In this document: in pieces, positions 4,897 through 20,437 of the stretch
How the letters are laid out: each line of letters starts with the position of its first letter
How positions within the stretch are numbered: the first letter of the stretch is position 1
Assembly: GCF_008107695.1 (NCBI RefSeq)
Contig: NZ_VIRG01000070.1
Location: forward strand, 806,001-870,000
DNA length: 64,000 nucleotides
Direction of reading: 5' to 3'
Source: Stappia sp. BW2
GTDB taxonomy: Bacteria; Pseudomonadota; Alphaproteobacteria; Rhizobiales; Stappiaceae
Made by a program: the position numbers and the translations under genes
Notes under the pieces: generated by a model
Database searches by the model: none
What the model was told of the DNA's origin: nothing
Seen by the model: the letters and a program-made list of their open reading frames with translations, nothing else

Positions 4897-6342
4897 CTAT
4901 TTGCCGGCACCAAGCGGCAACCGAACCTCGGCCTGGAGGCCGCCTTCCGGGCGGTTCTTCAAGTCGATCCGCCCGCCATGGGCATGGATGATCGACCGGG
5001 TGATCGCGAGCCCCAGTCCGATGCCGCCGGTTTCTTCGCTGCGGGATTCTTCAAGCCGGACAAACGGTTCGAAGACGTCCTTCAACTTTTCCTCGGGAAT
5101 GCCCGGGCCATCGTCCGTGATGCGGATGAGCGCTTCACCGTCAGATCTGGCCGCATGAACCGAAACACGGTCACCGTAGCGGATGCCGTTTTCGATCAGG
5201 TTCCTCAGCGCCCGTTTGAGCGCCACCGGACGGCACGGCAGCACGATGCGTCCATCCGTTTCCACGGTGCACTGGTGGCCAAGGTCCTGCTGGTCGCCCG
5301 CAAGCGCCTCCAGAATTGCGCCGAGATCTGCGTTTTCGCCGGTTTCAGCCTGGGCGTCGTCCCGGGCGAAACGCAGCGCGGCTTCCGTCATCGCAGCCAT
5401 TTCTTCCAGGGTTTCGATCATCTTGTCCCGGTTTTCCTCGTCCTCGATGAATTCGGCCCGAAGGCGCAGAGAGGTGATCGGGGTTCTCAGGTCGTGGCTG
5501 ATGGCTGCCAGCATCCGGGTCCGGTCCCTGACAAAACGTGTCAGGCGGTCCTGCATGTCGTTGAAAGCGCTTGTCAGGGAGCGGACTTCGCGCGGTCCAC
5601 TGGGCGTCAATGGCGGCTGCTGCTCGCCACGGCCGAATTTTTCGGCCGCAACAGACAGCTCTTTCAGGGGACGCGTTACGCGGCGGACAGCAAAGCCAAT
5701 AATCAACACCATCAGCAGGGCCGTTATCGACAGTTGCACCATCAGGGGCACAAAAGCCCCGGCAGGCGGGCGGTAGCTGGTGGCGACATTCAGCCAGCGT
5801 CCGTCGCTCATCCGGATAGACAGCGACAGGTCTTCCGGCTTGTTCATGATCTTGCGCATGTTCGAGGGACGTTCGTGCCGCGGCACATCGCGCCATCTCG
5901 GCCGATCGTCGTCATCTGCCTCACGGCCGCGCGGTCCGCGTCTTTCGTCGGCAAGGATGTTGAGATGCACGGCCTGGCCATGTTCCAGCCGGTCGGCCAT
6001 GTAGTTCTGCAGGCGTCTTTCGAAACGCGATTTGCCGGGGGCGGGCGCAAGGGGCGTGTCGCCGAGCCAGAAAACCGCGAACCGGCTGCTGCTTGCCAGG
6101 AGAATCCGGTCCTGCAGGTTTGCAGGCGTGTCTTCCATCAACTCCGCGAGGGAGACCGCGCGCGACAGAAGGTTGTCGCGGGCGGCGGCCACGAGCGCGA
6201 TGCGCCGCTCGTCCTGGAAGATCCAGATGCTGAACGCCTGCGCCGCAATGATTGCTGCCAGAAGCAGGATGATGAGCTGCGAGGCAAGGGTGCTCGGCCA
6301 CAGGCGGGCAAGTATGGGACGGGGCGTTGGAGGCGTTGTCAT
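4897..6342 (-). CDS. Sensor histidine kinase, EnvZ-type
   Basis: 481 residues. Membrane helix 1 is about residues 18-43; a periplasmic sensor of roughly 150 residues contains an acidic/arginine-rich patch (RGREADDDDRPRWRDV); helix 2 is about 218-238 and leads into a HAMP domain. The HisKA box AAISHDLRTPITS puts the phospho-accepting His at residue 283. The HATPase domain has N box NLIENGIRYG, G1 DDGPGIP and G2 GGIGLGLAI. The start codon overlaps the upstream response regulator stop by 4 nt (ATGA). It probably phosphorylates that regulator and, by position, may control the divergent EF-hand gene. Confidence 0.92.
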   Translation of the reverse strand: MTTPPTPRPILARLWPSTLASQLIILLLAAIIAAQAFSIWIFQDERRIALVAAARDNLLSRAVSLAELMEDTPANLQDRILLASSSRFAVFWLGDTPLAPAPGKSRFERRLQNYMADRLEHGQAVHLNILADERRGPRGREADDDDRPRWRDVPRHERPSNMRKIMNKPEDLSLSIRMSDGRWLNVATSYRPPAGAFVPLMVQLSITALLMVLIIGFAVRRVTRPLKELSVAAEKFGRGEQQPPLTPSGPREVRSLTSAFNDMQDRLTRFVRDRTRMLAAISHDLRTPITSLRLRAEFIEDEENRDKMIETLEEMAAMTEAALRFARDDAQAETGENADLGAILEALAGDQQDLGHQCTVETDGRIVLPCRPVALKRALRNLIENGIRYGDRVSVHAARSDGEALIRITDDGPGIPEEKLKDVFEPFVRLEESRSEETGGIGLGLAITRSIIHAHGGRIDLKNRPEGGLQAEVRLPLGAGK

Positions 6343-7079
6343 TCAGCCGGATCTTTCACGTCGGCGGTGAACATGTAGCCACCACCCCAGACGGTCTTGA
6401 TCAGCTTGGGGTCTTTCGGATCGATCTCGATCTTCCGACGCAGACGCGACACCTGGTTGTCGATGGACCTGTCGAAAACGGCAGGGGTTCTGCCGGTGGT
6501 CAGATCCATGAGCTGGTCCCGGTTGAGCACCATCTTCGGACGTTTGAGAAAAGCACACAGAAGCTGGAATTCGCCGCTGGAAAGGGCCACGGATGTGCCC
6601 TCCGGATCCAACAGCTCGCGCCGGGAGACATTCAACGACCAACCGTCGAAATACAGCCTGTCGTGTTCGATTGGATCGCGCTCTTTCGGTGCAAGCGAAG
6701 TGCGGCGCAGGACCGCGCGAATGCGTGCCAGCAATTCGCGGGGGTTGAAGGGTTTCGTCACGTAGTCGTCGGCACCGATTTCCAGCCCGATCACCCGGTC
6801 CGTGTCGTCCGCCATCGCGGTCAAAAGGATAACGGGCATGGAACCGGCCTCCACCAGATGGCGGCACAGGGACAATCCGTCTTCGCCTGGCATCATGATA
6901 TCCAGCACGACAAGATCGATGGATGCCGCCTTCAGGGTCTTGCGCGCCTGCGCGGCATTTTCCGCCACGGTCGCACGCAGGCCGTTCTTGACCAGGTAGC
7001 GCGCAAGCGTTTCGCGGATGTCGCGGTGATCGTCCACCACCAGGATATGCGGGCTCGGATCGCTCAAGGGTCTCTCCAA
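6339..7079 (-). CDS. OmpR-family response regulator
   Basis: 246 residues: receiver domain (about 11-125) with acidic pocket DD at 16-17 and phospho-acceptor D60 in VVLDIMMPGEDG, switch T in LLTAMADD and K in VTKPFNPRELLARIRA; then a winged-helix effector (about 145-238) ending TVWGGGYMF. First gene of the two-component operon with the kinase behind it. The 223-bp gap to the divergent EF-hand gene holds two inverted repeats that could be binding sites. Confidence 0.93.
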   Translation of the reverse strand: MERPLSDPSPHILVVDDHRDIRETLARYLVKNGLRATVAENAAQARKTLKAASIDLVVLDIMMPGEDGLSLCRHLVEAGSMPVILLTAMADDTDRVIGLEIGADDYVTKPFNPRELLARIRAVLRRTSLAPKERDPIEHDRLYFDGWSLNVSRRELLDPEGTSVALSSGEFQLLCAFLKRPKMVLNRDQLMDLTTGRTPAVFDRSIDNQVSRLRRKIEIDPKDPKLIKTVWGGGYMFTADVKDPAE

Positions 7080-10333: not shown

Positions 10334-11242
10334 TCAATCGAGACCGTAAATGCCGGCAATGTCCTGAAGCATCAGCTTTGCAGCCAGGATGCCGCCGGCT
10401 GTGTTCCAGATCGCATCGCTGACCTGGTGCACCTTGCCGGCCTTGACGGCGGAAAGAGACTGCCACAACGGCTCGGCGAGCACTTCTTTCTCCAGGGATG
10501 TGCCTTTGCCGTCGCCATTGTCATAGGTGAAGTAGAAGATCCGGTCGCCATCCATGTCCGGAATGCTTTCCTTGCCGGTGCGGATGGCGAATTCTTCGAC
10601 GTTCTGGTTGGCCGGCCGGTGAAAGCCGATGTCTTTCAGAAGCACACCGGAGAAACTGTCGAGCTGATAGATACGGATCTGGCCGGGCACGAAGCGGATG
10701 ACCGAGACTTCCTCGTTGAGGTGATCTCCAAGTTTGTCCCGAAGTTCCGCGACTGAAGCATCATAATCGGCGATGGCTGCATCCGCTTCCTGCTCCTTGC
10801 CGAGGGCTTCGGCATAGAGGCGGAAGTTGATCTTCCAGTCACCGCGCAGTTCCCTGGACATGACGGTCGGCGCGATTGCGGTCAGCTGCGGATAGATTTC
10901 CTCGTGCCGCTGTTTGTTCGCCAGAATCAGATCCGGTTCGAGGGCTGCGACCAGTTCCAGGTTGATTGTGTTTTCCATGCCGACGGGTTCCGCGCCTTCC
11001 ATGGCATCGGAAATGTGATCCCACCAGGGATCGCCCTGCCAGGAATTGGCCGCACCCACTGGCGTTACGCCAAGCTCCAGCAGAGCTTCGGTGCCTTCAT
11101 TCGTCAGGACGACAATCCGCTTCGGCGCGTCTGGCACCGTGACGGTGCCCATGCTGTCGGTTATGTCGCGGGAATGAGCTGGGCTTGCCGCGAGCAGCGC
11201 GAACAGGGGCAGGGCACATAGCAGGCGTGACCAGGTCTTCAT
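10334..11242 (-). CDS. Iron-siderophore ABC transporter, periplasmic binding protein (FecB/BtuF-type)
   Basis: 302 residues with a cleavable signal (MKTWSRLLCALPLFALLAAS, cut near AHS). The opening DITDSMGTVTVPDAPKRIVV and LELVAALEPDLILANKQ are typical of class III metal-chelate binding proteins. No lipobox cysteine, so it is probably a soluble periplasmic protein. AAGGA precedes the ATG by 6 nt. It is divergent from the permease and ATPase genes of the same importer, with a 94-bp shared promoter. No TonB receptor is in the window, so the chelate cannot be named. Confidence 0.9.
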   Translation of the reverse strand: MKTWSRLLCALPLFALLAASPAHSRDITDSMGTVTVPDAPKRIVVLTNEGTEALLELGVTPVGAANSWQGDPWWDHISDAMEGAEPVGMENTINLELVAALEPDLILANKQRHEEIYPQLTAIAPTVMSRELRGDWKINFRLYAEALGKEQEADAAIADYDASVAELRDKLGDHLNEEVSVIRFVPGQIRIYQLDSFSGVLLKDIGFHRPANQNVEEFAIRTGKESIPDMDGDRIFYFTYDNGDGKGTSLEKEVLAEPLWQSLSAVKAGKVHQVSDAIWNTAGGILAAKLMLQDIAGIYGLD

Positions 11243-11336
11243 TAGAATTCCTTAAAAAGTTGAATAATTGCCTCCAGAATTAAATCCGTGTATGGACGAG
11301 CCGAAGTTTTGTCAATCGGAGGAGAGAGGAGCGCGC
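11243..11336. promoter_or_regulatory. Divergent promoter region of the iron-siderophore importer
   Basis: AT-rich 94-bp gap between the two divergent transcription units. Two AGAATT hexamers (11244-11249 and 11276-11281) stand 32 bp apart, and TTAGAATTCCTTAAA partly resembles an Irr-type iron box. Iron control is expected from the function, but no box can be assigned firmly. Confidence 0.4.
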
Positions 11337-12326
11337 ATGAAGCGGACGGCGATTGCCTTGTTTCTGGCGCTGTGCGCGGCTGTCATCTTCAGCCTGCATG
11401 CCGGTTTGACGTTTTATACGCCTCAAACGGTCTTTGCCGCGCTTATGGGGGGCGAGGGCGCAGATGCGCTGATCGTGACCACCTTGCGTCTTCCCAGGAC
11501 CGCAATCGGCGTGGTTTGCGGGGCTTCGCTCGGCCTTTCCGGCCTTTTGATGCAATCGGTTACCCGCAATCCGCTGGCCGAACCCGGCCTGCTTGGCGTT
11601 AATGCGGGCGCTGCGCTGTTTGTGATCCTGGGGGTGACGGTGTTCGGTGTGGTGAGCCTGGCCGGTATCGGCATTGCGGCGGTGCTGGGGGCACTTGCAG
11701 CAACAGCGCTGGTGTTTTCGATTTCCGCGTCCACCGGCGGGGCGGGCAATCCGGCAACCACGCTGCTGGCCGGCTTTACTGTCGCTGCCCTGCTGGCATC
11801 CTTCACGCAAACCTTGCTCCTGATCGATGAAACCGCGCTTGAAACGCTTTTGTTCTGGCTGTCGGGCAGTTTTTCCGACCGACCAATTGGGCTCTTGCAA
11901 CTAGGGGTGCCGCTGCTTCTTGTCGGGGCCTTCGGCAGCTTTCTTCTGGCAACGCCGCTTGACGTTCTGCGTCTGGATGATGCCAGTGCCCGCTCGGTCG
12001 GGGTCAACGTCGGCTTGGTCAGGCTGGTCGCGCTCGGGCTTGCAGCTCTGCTGGCGGCAGGGGCGGTGGCCATGGCCGGGCCGGTGCTGTTTCTGGGGCT
12101 GGTCGCGCCGCATCTGGCACGCCGCCTGACCGATGGCGCTCTGCCATCGACGTGGCAATTGATCGTGCTCTCGCTTCTGACCGGAGCGCTGATTGCAGTT
12201 CTTGCCGATATTCTGGCCCGTATCATCGTTGCGCCGGGTGAAGCGCCGATGAGTGCCGTTCTTGCGCTTGTGGGTGTGCCGATGCTGATACATCTGCTGC
12301 ACAGGCGGAAAGGGCTTGCGGCGTGA
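11337..12326 (+). CDS. FecCD-family ABC permease, subunit 1
   Basis: 329 residues from ATG 11337 with GGAGGAGAGAGGAG upstream; the in-frame extension upstream lacks a better site. Nine to ten membrane helices with the FecCD signatures TTLRLPRTAIGVVCGASLGL, LLMQSVTRNPLAEPGLLGVN and, near the end, GPVLFLGLVAPHLARRL. It forms half of the inner-membrane channel for ferric-siderophore or heme/cobalamin uptake. Overlaps the next permease gene by 4 nt (GTGA). Confidence 0.93.
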   Translation: MKRTAIALFLALCAAVIFSLHAGLTFYTPQTVFAALMGGEGADALIVTTLRLPRTAIGVVCGASLGLSGLLMQSVTRNPLAEPGLLGVNAGAALFVILGVTVFGVVSLAGIGIAAVLGALAATALVFSISASTGGAGNPATTLLAGFTVAALLASFTQTLLLIDETALETLLFWLSGSFSDRPIGLLQLGVPLLLVGAFGSFLLATPLDVLRLDDASARSVGVNVGLVRLVALGLAALLAAGAVAMAGPVLFLGLVAPHLARRLTDGALPSTWQLIVLSLLTGALIAVLADILARIIVAPGEAPMSAVLALVGVPMLIHLLHRRKGLAA

Positions 12327-13345
12327 CGGCAGGCGTCTTTCCCCTGGTTCGGCTGCTGCCGGTCATGTTGCTTGTGTTTGCGCTGACGCTGGCGGCAACT
12401 GGCATTGGCTCCAGCTTCATGCCGCCCGAACGCGTCGTGGCAGCCCTTGCCGGGCAGGGCAGCCGCATGGACGAGGTGATCGTCTGGACCCTTCGCTTGC
12501 CCCGCGTTGCCCTTGCCATACTGGCGGGAGCCGCGCTTGCCCTTGCCGGGGCCTTGCTGCAGAGGGTCGTTCGCAATCCGATGGCCTCGCCGTCGGTTCT
12601 GGGCATCACGGACGGTGCGGCGGTCGGTGTGGTGCTGTTCCTGTGGCTGTTTTCCGACCAGGCGAACAATCTGACCGTTTCCATCCATTGGCAGCCTCTG
12701 GCTGCCATTGCCGGGGCGGCCGTTTTTGGGGCCCTGGTGATTGCGCTTGCTTCTCTTGATCAGGGCAGCAGCAAGCCGTTGAAGATCATCCTGTACGGGA
12801 TTGCCCTGGCCGCACTCGCCAAGGCAGCGGTCACGCTGTTGATTATTCTGGGGCCAGTCTACAGGGCAAGTCAGGCCCTGACCTGGTTCACGGGGTCCGT
12901 CGGTGCGGCCCATTGGCAGGATGTTCTGGCGGTGGGCCTCGGACTTCTGGCAGTCATTCCCCTTTTGCTGCTGCAGCGGCTCACCATTCGGCAGCTCGTG
13001 CTGGATCCGCAGAGCGCTGCCGTAACCGGACTGTCGCTGGATAGGGCTCAGGTGAGCCTTCTGGCGATTGCGGTTTTCCTGACGGCGATCGCGACAGCCC
13101 ATGTCGGAGCCATCGGATTCGTTGGTCTGGTCGCACCGCATGTGGCGCGGATATTTCACGGTCAGTTCCGGTCCGGATATCTGGTCTCCGTGGCTCTGAC
13201 CGGGAGTTTCCTGGTGCTGGCAGCCGACACGCTGGCCCGGATCATCGCACCGCCGCTGGAACTGCCCGCAGGCGCCCTGACCGCGCTCGTCGGTGCGCCG
13301 CTGTTTCTCTATCTGCTTGTAAAAGGACGGCAATCCCATGCCTGA
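12323..13345 (+). CDS. FecCD-family ABC permease, subunit 2
   Basis: 340 residues starting with GTG at 12323, inside the stop of the preceding gene. Signatures WTLRLPRVALAILAGAALAL, LQRVVRNPMASPSVLGITDG and IGFVGLVAPHVARI match the FecCD family. Pairs with subunit 1 to form a heterodimeric channel. The 3' end overlaps the ATPase gene by 8 nt, so all three are one operon. Confidence 0.93.
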   Translation: MTAGVFPLVRLLPVMLLVFALTLAATGIGSSFMPPERVVAALAGQGSRMDEVIVWTLRLPRVALAILAGAALALAGALLQRVVRNPMASPSVLGITDGAAVGVVLFLWLFSDQANNLTVSIHWQPLAAIAGAAVFGALVIALASLDQGSSKPLKIILYGIALAALAKAAVTLLIILGPVYRASQALTWFTGSVGAAHWQDVLAVGLGLLAVIPLLLLQRLTIRQLVLDPQSAAVTGLSLDRAQVSLLAIAVFLTAIATAHVGAIGFVGLVAPHVARIFHGQFRSGYLVSVALTGSFLVLAADTLARIIAPPLELPAGALTALVGAPLFLYLLVKGRQSHA

Positions 13346-14147
13346 TATTCTGGCCAGTCTCGACCGTGTCAGTGCCGCTTACGATGGTGCTCCCGCGCTG
13401 AACGAGGTCAGTCTCGATCTGCCCGACGGCAGGATCATTGCCTTTTGCGGGCCGAACGGCAGTGGCAAGTCGACTGCCCTAAAAGTGATGCGCGGACTGC
13501 ACCGGCTGGACGACGGCAGGGTGGAAATTGCGGGCAGGGCGCTTGGCGACTGGACACAGAAGGATCTGGCGCGCCAGGTCGCCATGTTGTCGCAATCGCC
13601 GGACGCTCCGTCCGATCTTTCGGTTGAGGATCTGGTCCTGATGGGGCGGTTCGCCCATCGCAGCCGGTTCGGTGGACCGTCGGCGGACGACAGGGCAGCC
13701 TGCGACCGTGCACTGGGCATCACCGAAATGGCAGAGCTGAAAGACCGTGCGCTGGCGCAACTCTCCGGCGGGCAGCTGCAACGGGCCTGGGTCGCCATGA
13801 CGCTGGCGCAGGACGCTCCGCGCATCTTTCTGGATGAGCCGACCAACCACCTGGACATTGCCCATGCGTTTGAACTGCTGGATCTCGTCAAGCGCCTGAG
13901 CCGTTCCGAGAACCGCAGTTTCGTCATCGTCCTGCACGATCTCAACATGGCCATGCGCTATGCCGATCATGTCGTTCTGTTCGAGCGGGGACGGATTGCA
14001 GCTAACGGGCCGACGACGGAGGTTCTGACGCAGGAGATCATCTCTTCCGTCTTCGGCATCGACTGCCGGATCTTGCCCCTGGACGGTCTGGAACGACCGG
14101 TCATTGTTTCCTGGGGCAAAGCCTCCAACACGGGCGTTTCCGCGTAG
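13338..14147 (+). CDS. Iron-siderophore ABC transporter ATP-binding protein (FecE/FepC-type)
   Basis: 269 residues. Walker A GPNGSGKST (about 38-46), Q-loop MLSQSPDAPSDLSVEDLVLM, ABC signature LSGGQLQRAWVAMTLAQ, Walker B IFLDEPTNHLDI and switch His in VLHDLNMAMRYAD. All elements for an active importer ATPase are present. Translationally coupled to the permease by an 8-nt overlap. The exosortase gene follows after only 73 bp, but with different function and its own hairpin. Confidence 0.94.
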   Translation: MPDILASLDRVSAAYDGAPALNEVSLDLPDGRIIAFCGPNGSGKSTALKVMRGLHRLDDGRVEIAGRALGDWTQKDLARQVAMLSQSPDAPSDLSVEDLVLMGRFAHRSRFGGPSADDRAACDRALGITEMAELKDRALAQLSGGQLQRAWVAMTLAQDAPRIFLDEPTNHLDIAHAFELLDLVKRLSRSENRSFVIVLHDLNMAMRYADHVVLFERGRIAANGPTTEVLTQEIISSVFGIDCRILPLDGLERPVIVSWGKASNTGVSA

Positions 14148-14204
14148 GGCCCGGCAAAATGCGCAAAATCTGCACATAGGCTGACTAGGGCCTGCAAGCG
14201 GGCT

Positions 14205-14221
14205 TGGCACAACAGGTGCCA
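14205..14221 (+). promoter_or_regulatory. Inverted repeat covering the exosortase ribosome-binding site
   Basis: TGGCAC (14205-14210) and GTGCCA (14216-14221) are perfect 6-bp arms around AACAG, and the second arm includes the A of the ATG. The only Shine-Dalgarno-like bases (AGGTG) sit inside the stem. A stem here could limit translation of the exosortase. Confidence 0.35.
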
Positions 14222-15717
14222 TGACCCGTCTGGCAAACACTTCCCCAACGTCTCTGGCCTTTCTCCTGGCCTCGCTGATCCTTGCTTATGAGCCATTGCG
14301 CTGGCTGATCGGCACCTGGACCGATCCGTCTTATCCGTCGACCGGCGCGCTCTATCTGGCCGCGCTGGCGGCTTTGACGTTCTGGTCTCTGACAAGCCCG
14401 GTCCGGCAGAATTCGATTGGCCACAGGCAGATGGCGGTTCTGCTTCTGCTGGTTTCCGCGCTGATCCGGCTGGCGAGCCAGGTTCTGGCGATCAACGTGA
14501 TTGGCGGACTGGCGCTGGCAATTGATGTCTTTGCGCTGGCGACCCTGTTTCGGACAGGCGAGAGACAGCGGGCCCTCTCGCCGTTCTGGCTGTCGGTCCT
14601 GTTTCTGTTCACCTTGCCGGTCGAGCGCATTTTCCAAAGGCTGCTTGGCTATCCGCTTCAGGAACTGTCGGCAAAGCTCTCCTGCGGCGGCCTTGGCCTT
14701 TTCTTTTCAGACCTCTCCTGTTCCGGCATCCGGATCGGCCTTGCCGGCAAGGACGTTCTGGTGGACCTGCCCTGTTCGGGTACATCCGGACTGATGCTGG
14801 CCATGGCGTTACTGGTCATCCTGAATGCGCTGTATCGGCCGAACCTGCTGACGGCGACGCTCTGGGCCTTCATTGCGCTGGGGCTGAGCCTCATCGGCAA
14901 TTCCCTGCGTATTGCGTTGCTAGCGGTTGGTATAGCCTATCCGGGACAGGTCTTTGGTGCCGATGTCATGGCACAGCCGCTGCACGACATCATCGGTTAT
15001 CTGACGCTCGCCCTGTCGATGGCACCTGTGCTGGTCTTCTATAAGCCGCGGTCCATCGAGCCGAGGGGAACCCGGGCTTTCTTCAACTTGCCGGTTCTGT
15101 CGCGGCCCATGCGGAACATGTCCGCACTGGTGTTCCTGAGCCTTGCCTTTTTCATCGTCAGCCTGCCAAGGCAGGCCCTTGATGTGTCGTCTTCCACCCG
15201 GCCCCAGTCGCTGCCGTTGACGCTGGCAGGCGAGGTCGGGATAGACGAAGCCCTGCTGCCCATTGAGGAGCAGTACTTCCAGCAATATGGCGGCCACGCG
15301 CAGAAGCGGCGCTATGGCCCGATGGCGCTGACGCTGGTGCATACGTCCTCGCCGCTGCGCCACCTTCATGCCCCGGACGATTGCCTGCGCGGGCTCGGCT
15401 TTGACGTGACCTTTCTCGGCTCCCGGTTTGAACCGGTTCCGACAGCGCTCTACCGCGCCCGCTCGGAAACCGGAGGCGACTGGCGGGTTGCCGTCACCTT
15501 TGTCTCCAGCGCCGGCCAGTCGACCCACAACATCGCCGAAGCGATCTGGCTGTGGCTGAAGCGGCCCGGCACCACCTGGACCAGCATTCAGCGGATCACG
15601 CCCTGGTCGCTGGACGAACCGCAGCGCGCCACCTTCGAGGCAGCCGCCGGGGCCGCTCTCGATCTCAACACCCGTACGTCCCGCATTGCCCCCGACCGAA
15701 AGGAGAAACGCATATGA
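14221..15717 (+). CDS. xrtT: Exosortase (XrtT-type) with C-terminal EpsI-like domain
   Basis: 498 residues. Residues about 10-285 form a multi-helix membrane domain with the exosortase catalytic triad: C185 in DLPCSGTSGL, R230 in GNSLRIALL and H255 in PLHDIIGY. A further helix near residues 302-317 leads to an exported domain (about 330-498) containing LRHLHAPDDCLRGLGF, resembling the EpsI/DUF3485 partner of exosortases. Exosortases are inner-membrane cysteine transpeptidase-like enzymes that cleave PEP-type C-terminal sorting signals. The stop overlaps the start of the VIT/vWA gene by 4 nt, so enzyme and probable target are translationally coupled. The subtype T is assigned from the neighbourhood and from memory of that family, not from a model search. 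Confidence 0.85.
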   Translation: MTRLANTSPTSLAFLLASLILAYEPLRWLIGTWTDPSYPSTGALYLAALAALTFWSLTSPVRQNSIGHRQMAVLLLLVSALIRLASQVLAINVIGGLALAIDVFALATLFRTGERQRALSPFWLSVLFLFTLPVERIFQRLLGYPLQELSAKLSCGGLGLFFSDLSCSGIRIGLAGKDVLVDLPCSGTSGLMLAMALLVILNALYRPNLLTATLWAFIALGLSLIGNSLRIALLAVGIAYPGQVFGADVMAQPLHDIIGYLTLALSMAPVLVFYKPRSIEPRGTRAFFNLPVLSRPMRNMSALVFLSLAFFIVSLPRQALDVSSSTRPQSLPLTLAGEVGIDEALLPIEEQYFQQYGGHAQKRRYGPMALTLVHTSSPLRHLHAPDDCLRGLGFDVTFLGSRFEPVPTALYRARSETGGDWRVAVTFVSSAGQSTHNIAEAIWLWLKRPGTTWTSIQRITPWSLDEPQRATFEAAAGAALDLNTRTSRIAPDRKEKRI

Positions 15718-18020
15718 CGGTCCTGTCCAAATACGTGTCTGTCAGCTCTCTGGCAGCCTCACTGGCCGCTGTCTTCAGCACGCTTTCGGTGCTGCCCGCC
15801 GCTGCTGAGCCTGATCTCGATGATCTGTCCGGAACCGTGGTCGCCACTTCAGGCGGCAAGGAGATCCATCTGCCCCTGCTGAAGGCCGACTACAGGGTCG
15901 AGGTTGACGGCGATGTGGCCCACGTTGAGCTGACGCAGACGTTCCTGAACCCGACCAAGCTGCCGCTGAATGCGACCTACCTGTTTCCGCTGAACCAGAA
16001 GGCGGCCATCCATGCCATGCGTATGGATCTCGACGGCGAGACCATCGTGGCCCGGATCAAGAAGAAGGAGGATGCCAAGGCCACCTTCGAAAAGGCAAAA
16101 CGGGAAGGCAAGGCCGCTGCCCTGTTGACCCAGCACCGGCCGAACATGTTCACCCAGGACATTGCCCATCTGATGCCTGGCCGCCCGGTGAAGGTGACGC
16201 TGGAATACGCCCAGACCGTTCCCAAGATCGACGGTGCTTATGAGCTGGTGATGCCGATGGTGGTGGGGCCACGTTATGAAGGGCCGGGCCCACAGGCGGC
16301 CATGGAGGCGTCGCAGATCATCGCTGGCGACCATAGGGCTGAAGATGATGGCCCCGGATACGGCGACACTGCATATGCAAGCGATGAGTCCATCTCTGCA
16401 AAACCGGCGGCGTTCAAGCACAGCGAAACGGTCTCCGGCTGGCAGATCGACAAGCTTCCGGCCTATCCCGAGATCATCGGGCAGAACGCACCGAAGGAAA
16501 TCGACCCCAGGCGCGTGTCGCTGGAGCTTTCTCTGAAGGCACCGATGCCTGTCTCGAGGCTGTCGAGCGAGACCCATGCGCTGGAGGTTTCCAGCCAGGG
16601 GGACATGCAGACAGTCCGATTCAAGTCCGGCAGGGCCATCGACAACCGGGATTTCGTGCTGCGCTATGAGCTTGCCGCACAAAGCGATGTCGCCGCTGGC
16701 GCCTCGTCCCGATACGAAGCGGACGGTGGAGGCTATTTCTCGCTGCTGATCGAGCCGCCGAAACTTCCGGCTGAAGACATGATCGGCCAGCGTGAGCTTG
16801 TCTTCGTGCTGGATACGTCCGGATCCATGACCGGGCAGCCGATGGAAGCCAGCAAGACCTTCATGAGCGCAGCGATCAAGGCTTTGCGCCCGGACGACTA
16901 TTTCCGCATCCTTCGCTTTTCCAGCAACACATCCCAATTTGCCGGAGATGCAGTGCTGGCAACCGAACGGAACAAGCGGCAGGCCCTCAAGTTCGTGTCC
17001 TCTCTGGAGGCTGGTGGTGGAACGGAGATCGACCGGGCCGTCAACACGGCCTTCGATCAGACGCAGCCGGACAACACCACCCGCATCGTTGTCTTCCTGA
17101 CCGACGGCTATATCGGCGATGAGGCGACCGTGATCTCAAGTGTCGCGAAGCGTATCGGCAAGGCACGCATCTATGCCTTCGGCGTCGGCAACTCCGTCAA
17201 CCGGTTCCTGCTGGATGCGATGGCGACCGAGGGCCGGGGGTATGCCCGTTATGTCGCTTTGGGAGAAGATGCCGGTGATGTAGCGGAAAATCTTGCCGCA
17301 AACCTGAAGACACCGCTTCTGACAGATATTTCCATCGACTGGAACGGGCTCAAGGTCGAGGGCCAGAGCCCGGCCCGGATCCCCGATCTGTTCGAAGGCG
17401 GATCGGTGCGCGTGATGGGGCGTTACACTGCCGGTGGAAGGCACACGATCTTCATCAATGGTCTCGTCAATGGGCATGCCGCCAGATTGCCGCTTGAAAT
17501 CGACCTGAAGTCTTCTGTCGACGGCAACGCGGTTTCCAGTCGAGCCTTGCCGCTGATCTGGGCGCGCGAGCAGATCTTCGACAAGGAACGCGCCTACACC
17601 ATCGGCGGCAGCACCGACACGCAACTGAAGCAGGAAATCGTGGATCTAGGACTGACCTATTCGCTCCAGACCCGGTTCACGTCCTTTGTGGCCGTATCCG
17701 AAAAGGTGGTGAATGGCGCACCGGCGGCGACGTCCCACCGAAATGTGCCCCTGCCGCAGGTGGCAGGCGTTTCCGCCAATGCCTATCCCTCCCTCAACCT
17801 GTCCGGCAGTTCGGCGCCGGAGCCCGAAGGCATTCTTGGCCTGATGCTGGTCCTCCTGGCTGTGGCTGCCCGGTTCCGGCTTCAGCTGGCGAATAGCTTC
17901 CGCAGATTGCGGGACAAGGTGCAGCTTTCCCGGTTCCGCGGTCAGGCAGAGCTGCGCGATGAGCAGGACCTTGCCTTGCCCCGTAGTTTGCGCCGGGATG
18001 GCTGGTGGCTGGAAACCTGA
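15714..18020 (+). CDS. VIT and von Willebrand A domain surface protein, exosortase target
   Basis: 768 residues from ATG 15714. Signal peptide about 1-31 (ending LPAAAEP). VIT domain about 35-165 with LPLNATYLFPLNQKAAIHAM. vWA domain about 360-530 with MIDAS D367-TSGS, then the T/D positions in GGGTEIDRAV and FLTDGY. Near the C-terminus PEPEG (702-706) precedes a hydrophobic segment ILGLMLVLLAVAARF and arginines, the layout of a PEP-CTERM-like sorting signal. Unusually, a 46-residue charged tail follows. Related proteobacterial proteins are targets of a dedicated sortase; here an exosortase replaces it. Its role is probably cell-surface adhesion or matrix, not proven. Confidence 0.9.
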   Translation: MTVLSKYVSVSSLAASLAAVFSTLSVLPAAAEPDLDDLSGTVVATSGGKEIHLPLLKADYRVEVDGDVAHVELTQTFLNPTKLPLNATYLFPLNQKAAIHAMRMDLDGETIVARIKKKEDAKATFEKAKREGKAAALLTQHRPNMFTQDIAHLMPGRPVKVTLEYAQTVPKIDGAYELVMPMVVGPRYEGPGPQAAMEASQIIAGDHRAEDDGPGYGDTAYASDESISAKPAAFKHSETVSGWQIDKLPAYPEIIGQNAPKEIDPRRVSLELSLKAPMPVSRLSSETHALEVSSQGDMQTVRFKSGRAIDNRDFVLRYELAAQSDVAAGASSRYEADGGGYFSLLIEPPKLPAEDMIGQRELVFVLDTSGSMTGQPMEASKTFMSAAIKALRPDDYFRILRFSSNTSQFAGDAVLATERNKRQALKFVSSLEAGGGTEIDRAVNTAFDQTQPDNTTRIVVFLTDGYIGDEATVISSVAKRIGKARIYAFGVGNSVNRFLLDAMATEGRGYARYVALGEDAGDVAENLAANLKTPLLTDISIDWNGLKVEGQSPARIPDLFEGGSVRVMGRYTAGGRHTIFINGLVNGHAARLPLEIDLKSSVDGNAVSSRALPLIWAREQIFDKERAYTIGGSTDTQLKQEIVDLGLTYSLQTRFTSFVAVSEKVVNGAPAATSHRNVPLPQVAGVSANAYPSLNLSGSSAPEPEGILGLMLVLLAVAARFRLQLANSFRRLRDKVQLSRFRGQAELRDEQDLALPRSLRRDGWWLET

Positions 18021-18046
18021 TCCGCGCTTCGCTATTGGTAACGCTT

Positions 18047-18062
18047 CCGCAGGTGACTGCGG
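18047..18062 (+). terminator. Short hairpin between target gene and regulator gene
   Basis: CCGCAG / CTGCGG stem of 6 bp with GTGA loop, followed by GAGCTGTTTTTC. It may be a partial terminator that separates expression of the structural pair from the regulators. Confidence 0.45.
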
Positions 18063-18086
18063 GAGCTGTTTTTCAGGAAGAGACAA

Positions 18087-18809
18087 TTGCCAGGTCAAAC
18101 CATTCTTGTAGTTGATGACGACCCGCACATTCGGGACGTCATCTGTTTCGCGCTTCAAAAGGCGTCTTACGTGTTTGAAGTTGCCGCTGACGGCAAGGAA
18201 GCGCTCGACAAGGCGCTTCTGTGCAATCCGTCCCTGATCGTACTGGATATCGGCCTGCCGGAAATGGACGGGCTGGACGTCTGCCGACATTTGCGCCGGA
18301 CGACCGAGGTGCCTATCCTGTTTCTGTCGGCCCGGGACGACGAGATCGACAAGATCGTCGGGCTGGAACTGGGCGCGGACGATTATGTCACCAAGCCGTT
18401 CAGCCCGCGCGAGCTGATTGCACGGGTCGGCGCGATCCTGAAACGCTATGGCGCCCCCGCTGTTGCCGAAACGGTTGAGGATCTGCCGGCGCTTCGCTTC
18501 GGAGCGGTTGAGCTCGACCGGTCGCAGCGCCATGTGAGTGTCGGTGAAACGCCGGTGACGCTGACGGCCATCGAGTTCGATATCCTCGCCACCCTGCTGG
18601 CCCGGCCCAAGATCGTCTTTACCCGCGAGCAGATCCTGCAGAGCGCCTATCGGGACAATATCCACGTTTCGGACAGAACCATCGACAGCCACATCCGCAA
18701 CATCCGCGCCAAGCTCGGTGCTGTTGGCTGCGGCGATGCCATCGAGACCGTTCATGGTGTCGGCTTCCGGCTCGGGCCCTGCCGGGTGGAGACAGGGACC
18801 AGCGGATGA
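18087..18809 (+). CDS. pdsR: OmpR-type response regulator of the sortase/exosortase system
   Basis: 240 residues, probably starting with TTG at 18087 (AGGAAG 6 nt upstream); no ATG or GTG gives a full receiver domain. Acidic residues D10-D12, phospho-acceptor D54 in LIVLDIGLPEMDG, switch residues in LFLSARDDE and VTKPFSPRELIARVGA; winged helix from about 135 to 235 ending VHGVGFRLG. The gene order target, regulator, kinase matches the regulators known as the proteobacterial dedicated sortase system response regulator. Overlaps the kinase gene by 4 nt. Confidence 0.88.
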   Translation: MPGQTILVVDDDPHIRDVICFALQKASYVFEVAADGKEALDKALLCNPSLIVLDIGLPEMDGLDVCRHLRRTTEVPILFLSARDDEIDKIVGLELGADDYVTKPFSPRELIARVGAILKRYGAPAVAETVEDLPALRFGAVELDRSQRHVSVGETPVTLTAIEFDILATLLARPKIVFTREQILQSAYRDNIHVSDRTIDSHIRNIRAKLGAVGCGDAIETVHGVGFRLGPCRVETGTSG

Positions 18810-20437
18810 TCCTGTCCCGCACTTTCCGTGACAAATGGCGGCCGCCGCTCTCCCTTGTGGTGGCGGGAGTTCTCAGCATCATGTTGCTGGTGCCGCTTGC
18901 CGGGATCGCCTTTTTCCGCGTCTATGAAAATCAGCTTATCGAGACCACGGAAGCGGAGCTGATCGGCCAGTCCGCCGCAATTGCAGCGGCAACGGCACAG
19001 CGTCTTGAAGAGGTCGGGAAGGATGGCCTGCCGCTTGGGCCCGAAGTCGCCAAGGTGGCTGAGGTTCCGGGCAGCCGCAGCATCTATTTGCGCCAACCGG
19101 GCGGAAGCTGGGCGCCGCAACTTCCGGAACTGGATCTGACGCGCACAAAGGTCCTGCCCGGGAGAGGCGCGCCACGGCCAGCTGCCGAACCGCCGCATCC
19201 GGCTTATCTGTGGGCCGGACAAGCGGTGGAGCGCATCCTGCAGGACACCCAGAAAAAAACTCTGGCCGGGTTCCGGGTGCTTGATTTTAATGGGGTGATC
19301 ATTGCCGGGCGTGAGGATCTCGGCCTGTCGCTCGCGCATGTGGAGGAGGTCAAAAAGGCGCTCACCGGGCGCTATGCCAGTGCCCTGCGCGAACGCATCG
19401 TCGATAATCCGCAGCCGATCTACTCCATCAGCCGGGGAACCAGCGTTCGCGTTTTTGTCGCGATGCCGATTATCGTGAACGACAGGATCGCGGGCGTCGT
19501 TTACGCTTCCCGGACACCCAGCAATATCCTCAAGGAAATGTTCCTGAAACGGGAGGCCGTCTTCTGGATGGTGGTCTTCGTGCTGGCCGCGACCTTCGTC
19601 GTCGGCTTCATTTTTGCCCGCGCGATTACCGGGCCGATCAAGGCGCTCACCCGCCGCTCGCTCGCCATCGGTAATGGCGAACGGGAGGCATTGAAGCCGC
19701 TGGCCATTCACGGCAACCGCGAGATCCACGCGCTATCGGAAAGCATGCTCGGCATGTCCCGCAAGCTGTTCGAGCGCAACGATTATATTTCCACCTTCGC
19801 CAATCATGTGACCCATGAACTGAAGACGCCGCTGACCGCTATACAGGGCGCGGCGGAATTGCTGCAGGATGCGGGCGGGGATCTCAGCCCTGCGGAACGT
19901 GAGAAATTTCTCGGCAACATCCTGCGCGACACGGAGCGGGCGTCGAAGCTGCTGAACAGGCTGCGCGATCTTGCGCGGGCCGACAGTGTCGAGATTGGCG
20001 GGAGTTGCCGGCTCAGCGACGTCGTTGCCGCGCTCAAAGGCCGTTTCGAGGGGCTGGAAATCGACCTGACCAGAGAGGCCGACCTGCCGATGTCGTCGGA
20101 AAATGCCCGGATCGTGTTTGACAACCTGATCGACAATTCCCGTCGGCACGGCGCGACGAGGGTCGCGATCCTTCCCGAGCAGGCCGGGAAAGGCCTCACG
20201 GTTCAGGTAAATGACAATGGTGAGGGCATTTCCGAGGGAAATCAGGGCCAGGTCTTTGATCTGTTTTTTACCACCCGGCGGGAGAGCGGCGGCACCGGCA
20301 TGGGGCTTGGCATCGTGCAGGCGCTTCTGAAGGCCCATGGGGCATCGATCAGCCTGCTTCCGGGTGACGATGGCGCCAGCTTCGAACTGTTCTTTCCTGT
20401 GAGGCCGTCGCCGGTCAGTCCGGCCAGCGGGAGCTGA
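18806..20437 (+). CDS. pdsS: Sensor histidine kinase of the sortase/exosortase system
   Basis: 543 residues. Membrane helix 1 about 15-38; large periplasmic sensor about 40-250; helix 2 about 251-272; HAMP with ARAITGPIKALTRRSLAIG; HisKA box FANHVTHELKTPLTA with phospho-His H337; HATPase with NLIDNSRRHG, DNGEGIS and GTGMGLGI. Length and domain order fit the dedicated sortase-system kinase group. Presumably senses envelope state and controls the exosortase locus. Its last 23 nt overlap the 3' end of the convergent LysR gene. Confidence 0.9.
   Translation: MILSRTFRDKWRPPLSLVVAGVLSIMLLVPLAGIAFFRVYENQLIETTEAELIGQSAAIAAATAQRLEEVGKDGLPLGPEVAKVAEVPGSRSIYLRQPGGSWAPQLPELDLTRTKVLPGRGAPRPAAEPPHPAYLWAGQAVERILQDTQKKTLAGFRVLDFNGVIIAGREDLGLSLAHVEEVKKALTGRYASALRERIVDNPQPIYSISRGTSVRVFVAMPIIVNDRIAGVVYASRTPSNILKEMFLKREAVFWMVVFVLAATFVVGFIFARAITGPIKALTRRSLAIGNGEREALKPLAIHGNREIHALSESMLGMSRKLFERNDYISTFANHVTHELKTPLTAIQGAAELLQDAGGDLSPAEREKFLGNILRDTERASKLLNRLRDLARADSVEIGGSCRLSDVVAALKGRFEGLEIDLTREADLPMSSENARIVFDNLIDNSRRHGATRVAILPEQAGKGLTVQVNDNGEGISEGNQGQVFDLFFTTRRESGGTGMGLGIVQALLKAHGASISLLPGDDGASFELFFPVRPSPVSPASGS

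Follow-up and report, generated by a model that had tools for sequence, protein, structure and literature searches.

The window analysed here, a 64-kb stretch of the 6.4 Mb genome of Stappia sp. BW2 (contig 17, positions 806001-870000), carries a four-gene cassette encoding exosortase T (XrtT), a VIT/vWA surface protein with a C-terminal sorting signal, an OmpR-type response regulator (RR) and a sensor histidine kinase (HK). The favoured reading, to which a probability of roughly two in three is attached, is a one-enzyme, one-substrate exosortase T system under its own CreBC-like two-component pair, which would be driven from a conserved direct repeat (the box) upstream of xrtT and co-regulated with creD in those genomes where creD is preceded by the box. 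All four genes lie on the plus strand, and ATGA overlaps of 4 nt join xrtT to the target gene (15714-15717) and the regulator gene to the kinase gene (18806-18809); the coordinates, the overlaps and the four gene types had been given correctly in a preliminary description of this DNA. Clustering of open reading frames (ORFs) over the 17 XrtT loci studied revealed no fifth cassette gene, as four families alone were common to distant loci and the other wide clusters consisted of antisense ORFs of the four cassette genes. The closest named exosortase locus was that of Roseibium aggregatum IAM 12614, with 90% identity in the best segment, which makes the source a Roseibium-type alphaproteobacterium.

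Exosortase T and its VIT/vWA target

The xrtT product (14221..15717, plus strand, 498 aa) matched the exosortase T model NF033770 over its full length at 717.2 bits, far above the cut-off of 250, and also matched PF09721, confirming the enzyme type proposed for it earlier. The catalytic triad C185, R230 and H255 (codons 14773-14775, 14908-14910 and 14983-14985, plus strand) stands at the positions first described, and the corresponding C, R and H columns show no variation among the 16 sequences that reach across them in an alignment of 17 exosortase T proteins; the remaining sequence (L110) is a fragment. The whole genome holds a single exosortase according to a PF09721 search; a search of plasmids for XrtT gave no match, and no solved structure similar to the exosortase by sequence was found. 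Exosortase T was rare and patchily distributed, being present in 4/385 genomes of the class sample, 10/297 of the order sample and 2/398 of the phylum sample (the own genome is included in each count and both phylum matches are also in the order count), and was absent from all four other genomes of the same genus in the order sample. A TIGR03788-like VIT target adjoined xrtT on the same contig in 10/10 of the XrtT genomes of the order sample, and the NF033770 and TIGR03788 matches bore out the pairing of exosortase T with one adjacent VIT/vWA target in the window.

The predicted target (15714..18020, plus strand, 768 aa) begins with a signal-peptide-like stretch and contains VIT (PF08487, 3e-30) and vWA (PF13768, 2e-22) domains; its sequence also matches PARP4 and the inter-alpha-trypsin inhibitor heavy chains, as expected of VIT/vWA proteins. 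Against TIGR03788 it scored 432.1 bits, below the cut-off of 551.65, with 621 of the 629 model positions matched. No LPxTG-like motif was present, the target having a PEPEG tail instead, and the own genome (G000) gave no match to the TIGR03784 sortase. The PEPEG sequence (residues 702-706, codons 17817..17831, plus strand), read by eye as the predicted exosortase recognition motif, leads into a hydrophobic stretch at residues 705-726 that is predicted by hydropathy to be a membrane helix (17826-17891, plus strand) and is followed by a basic C-terminal cluster. By eye, PEP was present in 16/16 targets of XrtT loci with the C-terminus present, the 17th (L106) being cut by a contig end.

PEP-CTERM signals have a short tail after the helix. 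The window target exceeds this with 42 residues beyond the helix, ending in LPRSLRRDGWWLET (codons 17976..18017, plus strand), and XrtT-locus targets from outside the Stappiaceae end soon after the helix. The PEP-CTERM model PF07589 matched neither the window target (E up to 0.01) nor its position in the genome. The preliminary description had proposed checking that no other PEP-type protein exists in the genome, and PF07589 found none above its cut-off; since the model also misses the system's own target, this tests the point only weakly. As a side observation, three related genomes (L103-L105) share an extra conserved ORF of about 145 codons between target and RR, with one hydrophobic stretch by eye.

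The regulator pair, the direct repeat and creD

The regulator (18087..18809, plus strand, 240 aa, TTG start) and the kinase (18806..20437, plus strand, 543 aa, with two hydrophobic stretches about 205 residues apart) form a pair whose likeness to CreBC shows in the model scores but not in the trees, and which is not the pair of the dedicated sortase system. The best model for the RR was CreB (NF008296, 240.9 bits, cut-off 273), compared to 148.3 bits for TIGR03787 (cut-off 335.7), and that for the HK was CreC (NF008312, 150.6 bits, cut-off 356), compared to 78.6 bits for TIGR03785 (cut-off 612.2). This preference recurred along the XrtT loci. CreB was the best NCBIfam model in 11/11 scanned RRs (of 14) at 218-241 bits, with TIGR03787 at 143-165, and CreC was best in 11/11 scanned HKs (of 14) at 132-197 bits, with TIGR03785 at 68-107 in ten of them and absent among the 25 families listed for the L104 HK. 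The scan left out the RRs of L004, L104 and L108 and the intact HK of L004; the 14 HKs include one split (L103) and one cut (L105), both left out of the HK trees, and neither protein is represented from L101, L106 or L110.

Reference kinases for the trees came from 12 loci matching TIGR03785 in a phylum sample of 229 genomes (13/229 with a match), together with 11 neighbouring regulators; rhizobial-type queries found a VIT target in the fetched stretch of 4/12 of these loci and a sortase-like ORF in 1/12. The TIGR03785-type kinases and their neighbouring regulators formed separate clades (100/100), distinct from those of the exosortase-linked proteins (14 RRs, 95/88; 12 HKs, 99/96). No OmpR-type regulator or kinase was identified near the target within about 6 kb, in the available flank, at 20 sortase loci of the same order, drawn from 20 of the 56 sortase-plus-target genomes; where the flank is long enough, the nearest such match stands at about 6 kb. 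The preliminary description had likened the regulators to those of the dedicated sortase system; with TIGR03787 and TIGR03785 scoring far below CreB and CreC, separate clades and no such pair by the 20 sortase loci, that likeness did not stand, and a dedicated-sortase identity is ruled out by the model scores and both trees.

The pair adjoined xrtT and its target in 14 of the 16 XrtT loci with informative flank, including L099 and L100 from other orders. The kinase of L100 weakly matched TIGR02916 PrsK.

A direct repeat, TGCGCA-N5-TGCACA with an 11-bp period, lies at 14160..14176 on the plus strand and ends 44 bp before the xrtT start codon, a position kept in L002-L004. An 11-bp direct repeat fits the OmpR-type class of regulators, and the repeat is predicted to be the regulator box. 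Its consensus is approximately TGCACA-N5-TGCACA, or equally TGCAC-N6-TGCAC, and at up to one mismatch to TGCACA-N5-TGCACA it was the sole match on both strands of the window. The box occurred near the xrtT start on the same strand with at most one mismatch in 12/16 loci and with two mismatches in L005 and L109, thus upstream of xrtT in 14/16 altogether at two mismatches or fewer; L110 was excluded for having no upstream sequence, and in L104 the box appears at +37 because the ORF was taken from its first possible start. All matches with at most one mismatch in the 16 XrtT loci sit at the xrtT start, compared to 41 matches with up to two mismatches in their 676,438 strand-positions. A perfect box still precedes xrtT in the rearranged L100, in which RR and HK come before xrtT. 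At up to one mismatch, control scans gave no match in the 20 sortase loci (341,707 bp), one in seven other VIT loci (114,822 bp) and one in 12 phylum-sample loci (180,402 bp). The locus without a downstream pair in G112 (L101) also keeps the box.

CreB and its relative BlrA are reported to require TTCACN6TTCAC, the cre/blr tag located upstream of creD (PMC4689548). The half-site of the xrtT box, TGCAC, differs from TTCAC by one base per half-site, and as a positive control the scan recovered the cre/blr tag 77 bp before E. coli creD. A creD match was found in 6/13 XrtT genomes, on another contig than xrtT in 6/6, and in 4/6 the repeat stands 105-132 bp before creD. This creD box was perfect in the own genome (G000:C39:281134-281150), had one mismatch in G237 and G395 and two in G441; the four genomes represent three lineages because G395 and G441 belong to the same genus. 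No RR match was present beside creD in the stretches fetched from the six genomes, and we infer that the exosortase-linked pair may act as the CreBC of genomes with a boxed creD. Loss of CreD is reported to damage envelope integrity in Stenotrophomonas, and CreBC/BlrAB to be triggered in Pseudomonas and Aeromonas when penicillin-binding protein 4 is lost (PMC4689548; PMC2654508). Taken with these envelope roles, the box common to xrtT and creD leads to the hypothesis of an envelope-stress role for the exosortase system and suggests that the operon forms part of a response to cell-envelope stress.

Box-like matches elsewhere in the genomes were searched at up to one mismatch in 18 genomes. The own genome had 23 and the XrtT-less relatives G617, G666, G651 and G634 had 27, 20, 18 and 14, respectively; the evidence of the box therefore lies in position and conservation and not in number, since the matches are not rarer where XrtT is lacking. 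A reversed-pattern control (23 versus 6 in the own genome) differs in dinucleotide composition and was given no weight. A regulon check covered 60 stretches around matches in seven genomes (G237 7/9, G441 13/14, G395 5/7, G463 11/11, G419 9/21, G494 10/29 and G663 5/18); in 48 of them a mechanically called ORF of 200 codons or more, on one strand or the other, encloses the match. In the XrtT-less G463, none of the 11 matches neighbours a gene closely related to that of the RR or HK. A one-mismatch repeat outside long ORFs was seen in G419 (L242, G419:C159:8700-11700), 81 bp before a 316-codon ORF whose first 60 residues are metallophosphoesterase-like by eye.

Beside the cassette, the window contains a second OmpR-type regulator and kinase pair at 4897-7079 on the minus strand, the kinase of which groups with EnvZ and CpxA in the tree. 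Between this pair and xrtT, positions 10334-14147 are siderophore-type ABC transporter-like by eye.

The DGWWL motif, a relic locus and the proposed mechanism

A further motif, P..L.RDGWWL, was identified on the target tail in Roseibium-type loci or on the exosortase in others. In six Stappiaceae loci (the window, L002-L005 and L102), the helix of the target is followed by a variable basic stretch and then, at the very C-terminus, LPR(S/T)(L/V)xRD(G/S)WWLE(T/D). In L099, L103, L104, L105 and L110, the targets of which end soon after the helix, the motif lies in the exosortase between the eighth and ninth predicted helices (e.g., IPDRLRRDGWWLEH). Both tail and loop motif are predicted to face the cytoplasm, based on the hydropathy of the window proteins and on the topology of the exosortase family. 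A looser pattern applied in all frames to 1.1 Mb of fetched loci found, beyond these and the L202 locus described below, one short unrelated ORF (L092).

Two results bear on the role of the motif: it occurs on two unrelated proteins but never on both in one locus (0/17), and for nine tail-loop pairs (three of six tails and three of five loops, hand-cut around the motif) the observed score was reached by 0/1000 shuffles. They count against the motif being a membrane-edge anchor without a partner, an explanation that nevertheless has a substantial chance of being right, somewhat short of even, and that would make the small-ORF copy in G617 the leftover of a recent deletion. In G617, a member of the same genus, neither exosortase T nor TIGR03788 was matched. 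Its locus L202 (G617:C63:56000-75900) carries in order on the reverse strand the box, a 57-codon ORF, an RR and an HK, and is syntenic with XrtT loci, its flanks matching L003 and L005. The 57-codon ORF is preceded by a ribosome-site-like stretch and ends in LPRTLRRDGWWLES (DGWWLES). The RR and HK showed 78% and 65% identity, respectively, and the HK fell inside the Stappiaceae XrtT clade (100/100), from which it follows that xrtT and most of the target have probably been lost. In this one genome the box, motif and pair may have been kept through selection or may persist because the loss was recent. That a single such genome was found, and that the 57-codon ORF can be recognised as similar to the target tail only in its last 19 residues, fits the anchor explanation. 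A bolder and rather unlikely proposal sees in the DGWWL peptide a mobile signalling element of the cytoplasm that reports exosortase activity to the CreBC-like pair and is borne by the leftover substrate tail in Roseibium, by the exosortase elsewhere and alone beside the regulators after losses. If true, the system would be a processing sensor: cleavage of a surface protein would adjust a regulon for envelope stress that includes creD.

The proposed course of events under the favoured reading begins with the periplasmic stretch of the HK, which would sense a cell-envelope signal, and continues with phosphorylation of the RR, as expected from the family. The RR would bind TGCAC-N6-TGCAC upstream of xrtT, thereby raising enzyme, target and, by gene order, itself, as the conserved repeat and the operon layout suggest, and would also drive creD, an envelope-integrity gene, where creD has the repeat. 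By analogy with their families, the target would be exported via its signal peptide and held by its C-terminal helix until exosortase T cuts at PEP, releasing the VIT/vWA part at the outer face of the inner membrane or handing it on. The predicted cytoplasmic DGWWL motif would probably hold together enzyme, substrate or a shared partner.

Several observations weigh against this reading. The cut-offs of CreB and CreC were reached by no scanned RR or HK, the XrtT-linked proteins did not join E. coli CreB and CreC in the trees, where branches are long, and only 5/12 reference kinases were over the TIGR03785 cut-off. L101 (G112) and L110 (G508) lacked RR and HK in 4.2 and 8.4 kb downstream, respectively. 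The box of L102 has two mismatches, lies at another position and is doubtful, L106 has none, relatives lacking XrtT do not show box-like matches more rarely than the own genome does, and no downstream gene recurred after the matches in the 60 stretches. An exact TTCACN6TTCAC was absent from the XrtT and creD loci; 7/13 XrtT genomes, some incomplete, gave no creD match, creD had no box in G091 and G663 (2/6), and in G237 a kinase only weakly like the window HK stands directly before creD. Neither protein carries the DGWWL motif in 5/17 loci (L100, L101, L107, L108 and L109), L106 being undecided.

In an alternative reading, the box is served by another regulator that controls xrtT and creD, the RR/HK pair then being a neighbour with its own job. 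The persistence of pair and box in G617 without xrtT and most of the target, and the two XrtT loci without the pair in the fetched flank, agree with this arrangement. It is judged unlikely, as the pair is kept in 14/16 informative loci including those from other orders, box and pair stay together in G617 and the repeat is close to the tag described for CreB (PMC4689548).

The literature searched held no description of exosortase T with linked regulators, box or tail motif, and no paper that pairs an exosortase with Roseibium or contains the string DGWWL, subscription papers and database notes being outside the coverage. The existence of the named NCBI model NF033770 means that curators know the exosortase T family, and the adjacent VIT gene may figure in their notes on it. 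Three things appear new within that literature: the regulators' identity, the occurrence of one box before both xrtT and creD, and the motif moving between enzyme and substrate. To our knowledge, the function of bacterial exosortases and when they are switched on are poorly known, and a cassette this small, in which a single enzyme and a single predicted substrate come with dedicated regulators and a predicted binding site, opens function and timing to experiment in a marine genus that can be cultured. By also preceding creD, the box proposes an envelope-stress role that no part of the cassette alone reveals, and the alternation of the motif between enzyme and substrate hints at an unrecognised link at the inner face of the membrane.

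Sorting enzymes of the target family and related systems

The target family is paired with other sorting enzymes in the same order. The TIGR03784 sortase was identified in 57/297 order genomes, 56 over the cut-off, and 56/57 also have a TIGR03788 match, on the same contig and within about 1 kb in 55; the two matches lie on different contigs in G595, and in G461, the 57th genome without a TIGR03788 match, the sortase match is below the cut-off. The preliminary description had asked whether sortase and exosortase versions exclude each other. The two co-occurred in 0/297 genomes, but mutual exclusion is not claimed because an overlap of only 1.9 would be expected (P(0)=0.11), and it is thus not statistically supported.

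Eight order genomes had a TIGR03788 match and neither exosortase T nor the TIGR03784 sortase. Six of the eight (G631, G518, G412, G442, G478 and G488) have a rhombosortase that scores over the TIGR03902 cut-off and is no more than 1 kb from the VIT gene; these rhombosortase-VIT loci are L113-L116 and L122-L127. The four tails read (L113-L116) are GlyGly-CTERM-like, with a glycine-rich stretch, helix and basic residues. A second VIT protein of G631 (L111, C62) and those of G648 (L112, C14) and G393 (L117, C324) have a C-terminal helix and no visible sorting motif, and no exosortase T, sortase or over-cut-off rhombosortase was found beside them. L111 and L112 fall inside the clade of sortase targets and so look like targets that lost their sortase. 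As judged from sequence, the idea of a single surface-protein family whose sorting enzyme is exchangeable (class GN sortase, exosortase T or rhombosortase) holds within one order. That this VIT/vWA family bears three sorting signals has been in print since 2011, the exosortase case being Verrucomicrobium spinosum (PMC3237569), and the pairing principle is therefore not new; rhizobial genes of the family are in print as "marine proteobacterial sortase target protein" (PMC6637203).

The target tree was built after removal of the last 75 residues; it excludes the L106 target, which a contig end cuts, and the shorter fragment of the split target in L105. It grouped 16 exosortase-type targets in one clade (100/100), 23 sortase-type and three unsigned targets in another (98/97) and four GlyGly-type targets on a long separate branch, with neither the exosortase-type nor the sortase-type clade nested in the other. 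The preliminary description had proposed that the module swapped its processing enzyme: the target is indeed related to that of the sortase (TIGR03788, 432 bits), but a recent swap is ruled out by the separate clades, so that any exchange is not recent. How many exchanges took place, and in which direction, depends on where the tree is rooted. The root falls on the long GlyGly branch and is uncertain, as it is a meeting point of long branches; the program warned of possible attraction between this branch and the exosortase-type branch. The full reading of the preliminary description, a dedicated sortase module (target plus dedicated regulators) with an exosortase in place of the sortase, draws on the match along 621/629 positions of TIGR03788, on the target sharing a contig with the sortase in 55/56 and with exosortase T in 10/10 order genomes and on the published precedent of three sorting signals (PMC3237569). 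It is considered quite improbable, as the regulators belong to another clade and have another best model, the 20 order sortase loci have no such pair nearby and the target clades are separate.

Compared to the exosortase T family defined by NF033770, the window enzyme shows no difference within the enzyme itself. The XrtA/PEP-CTERM systems resemble the cassette in combining an exosortase with a two-component partner, PrsK/PrsR, and differ in having another kinase family, many targets and exopolysaccharide genes. The class GN sortase cassette (TIGR03784/TIGR03788/TIGR03785/TIGR03787) likewise has a VIT/vWA target with a C-terminal motif, helix and basic residues beside its sole sorting enzyme; it differs in enzyme family, regulator clade, target clade and an LPxTAT-like motif versus PEP here. 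Dedicated rhombosortase/GlyGly-CTERM pairs, as described in PMC3237569, are comparable through the VIT/vWA genes beside rhombosortase in six order genomes, whereas enzyme and signal are unrelated and these VIT/vWA proteins are only distant relatives of the window-type target. The predicted control circuit resembles CreBC/BlrAB with CreD, as presented in PMC4689548 and PMC2654508, in the best-fitting models, the period of the direct repeat and the repeat before creD in 4/6 genomes; it differs in that scores are below cut-off, the window-type pair is linked to xrtT and not to creD, and TGCAC replaces TTCAC.

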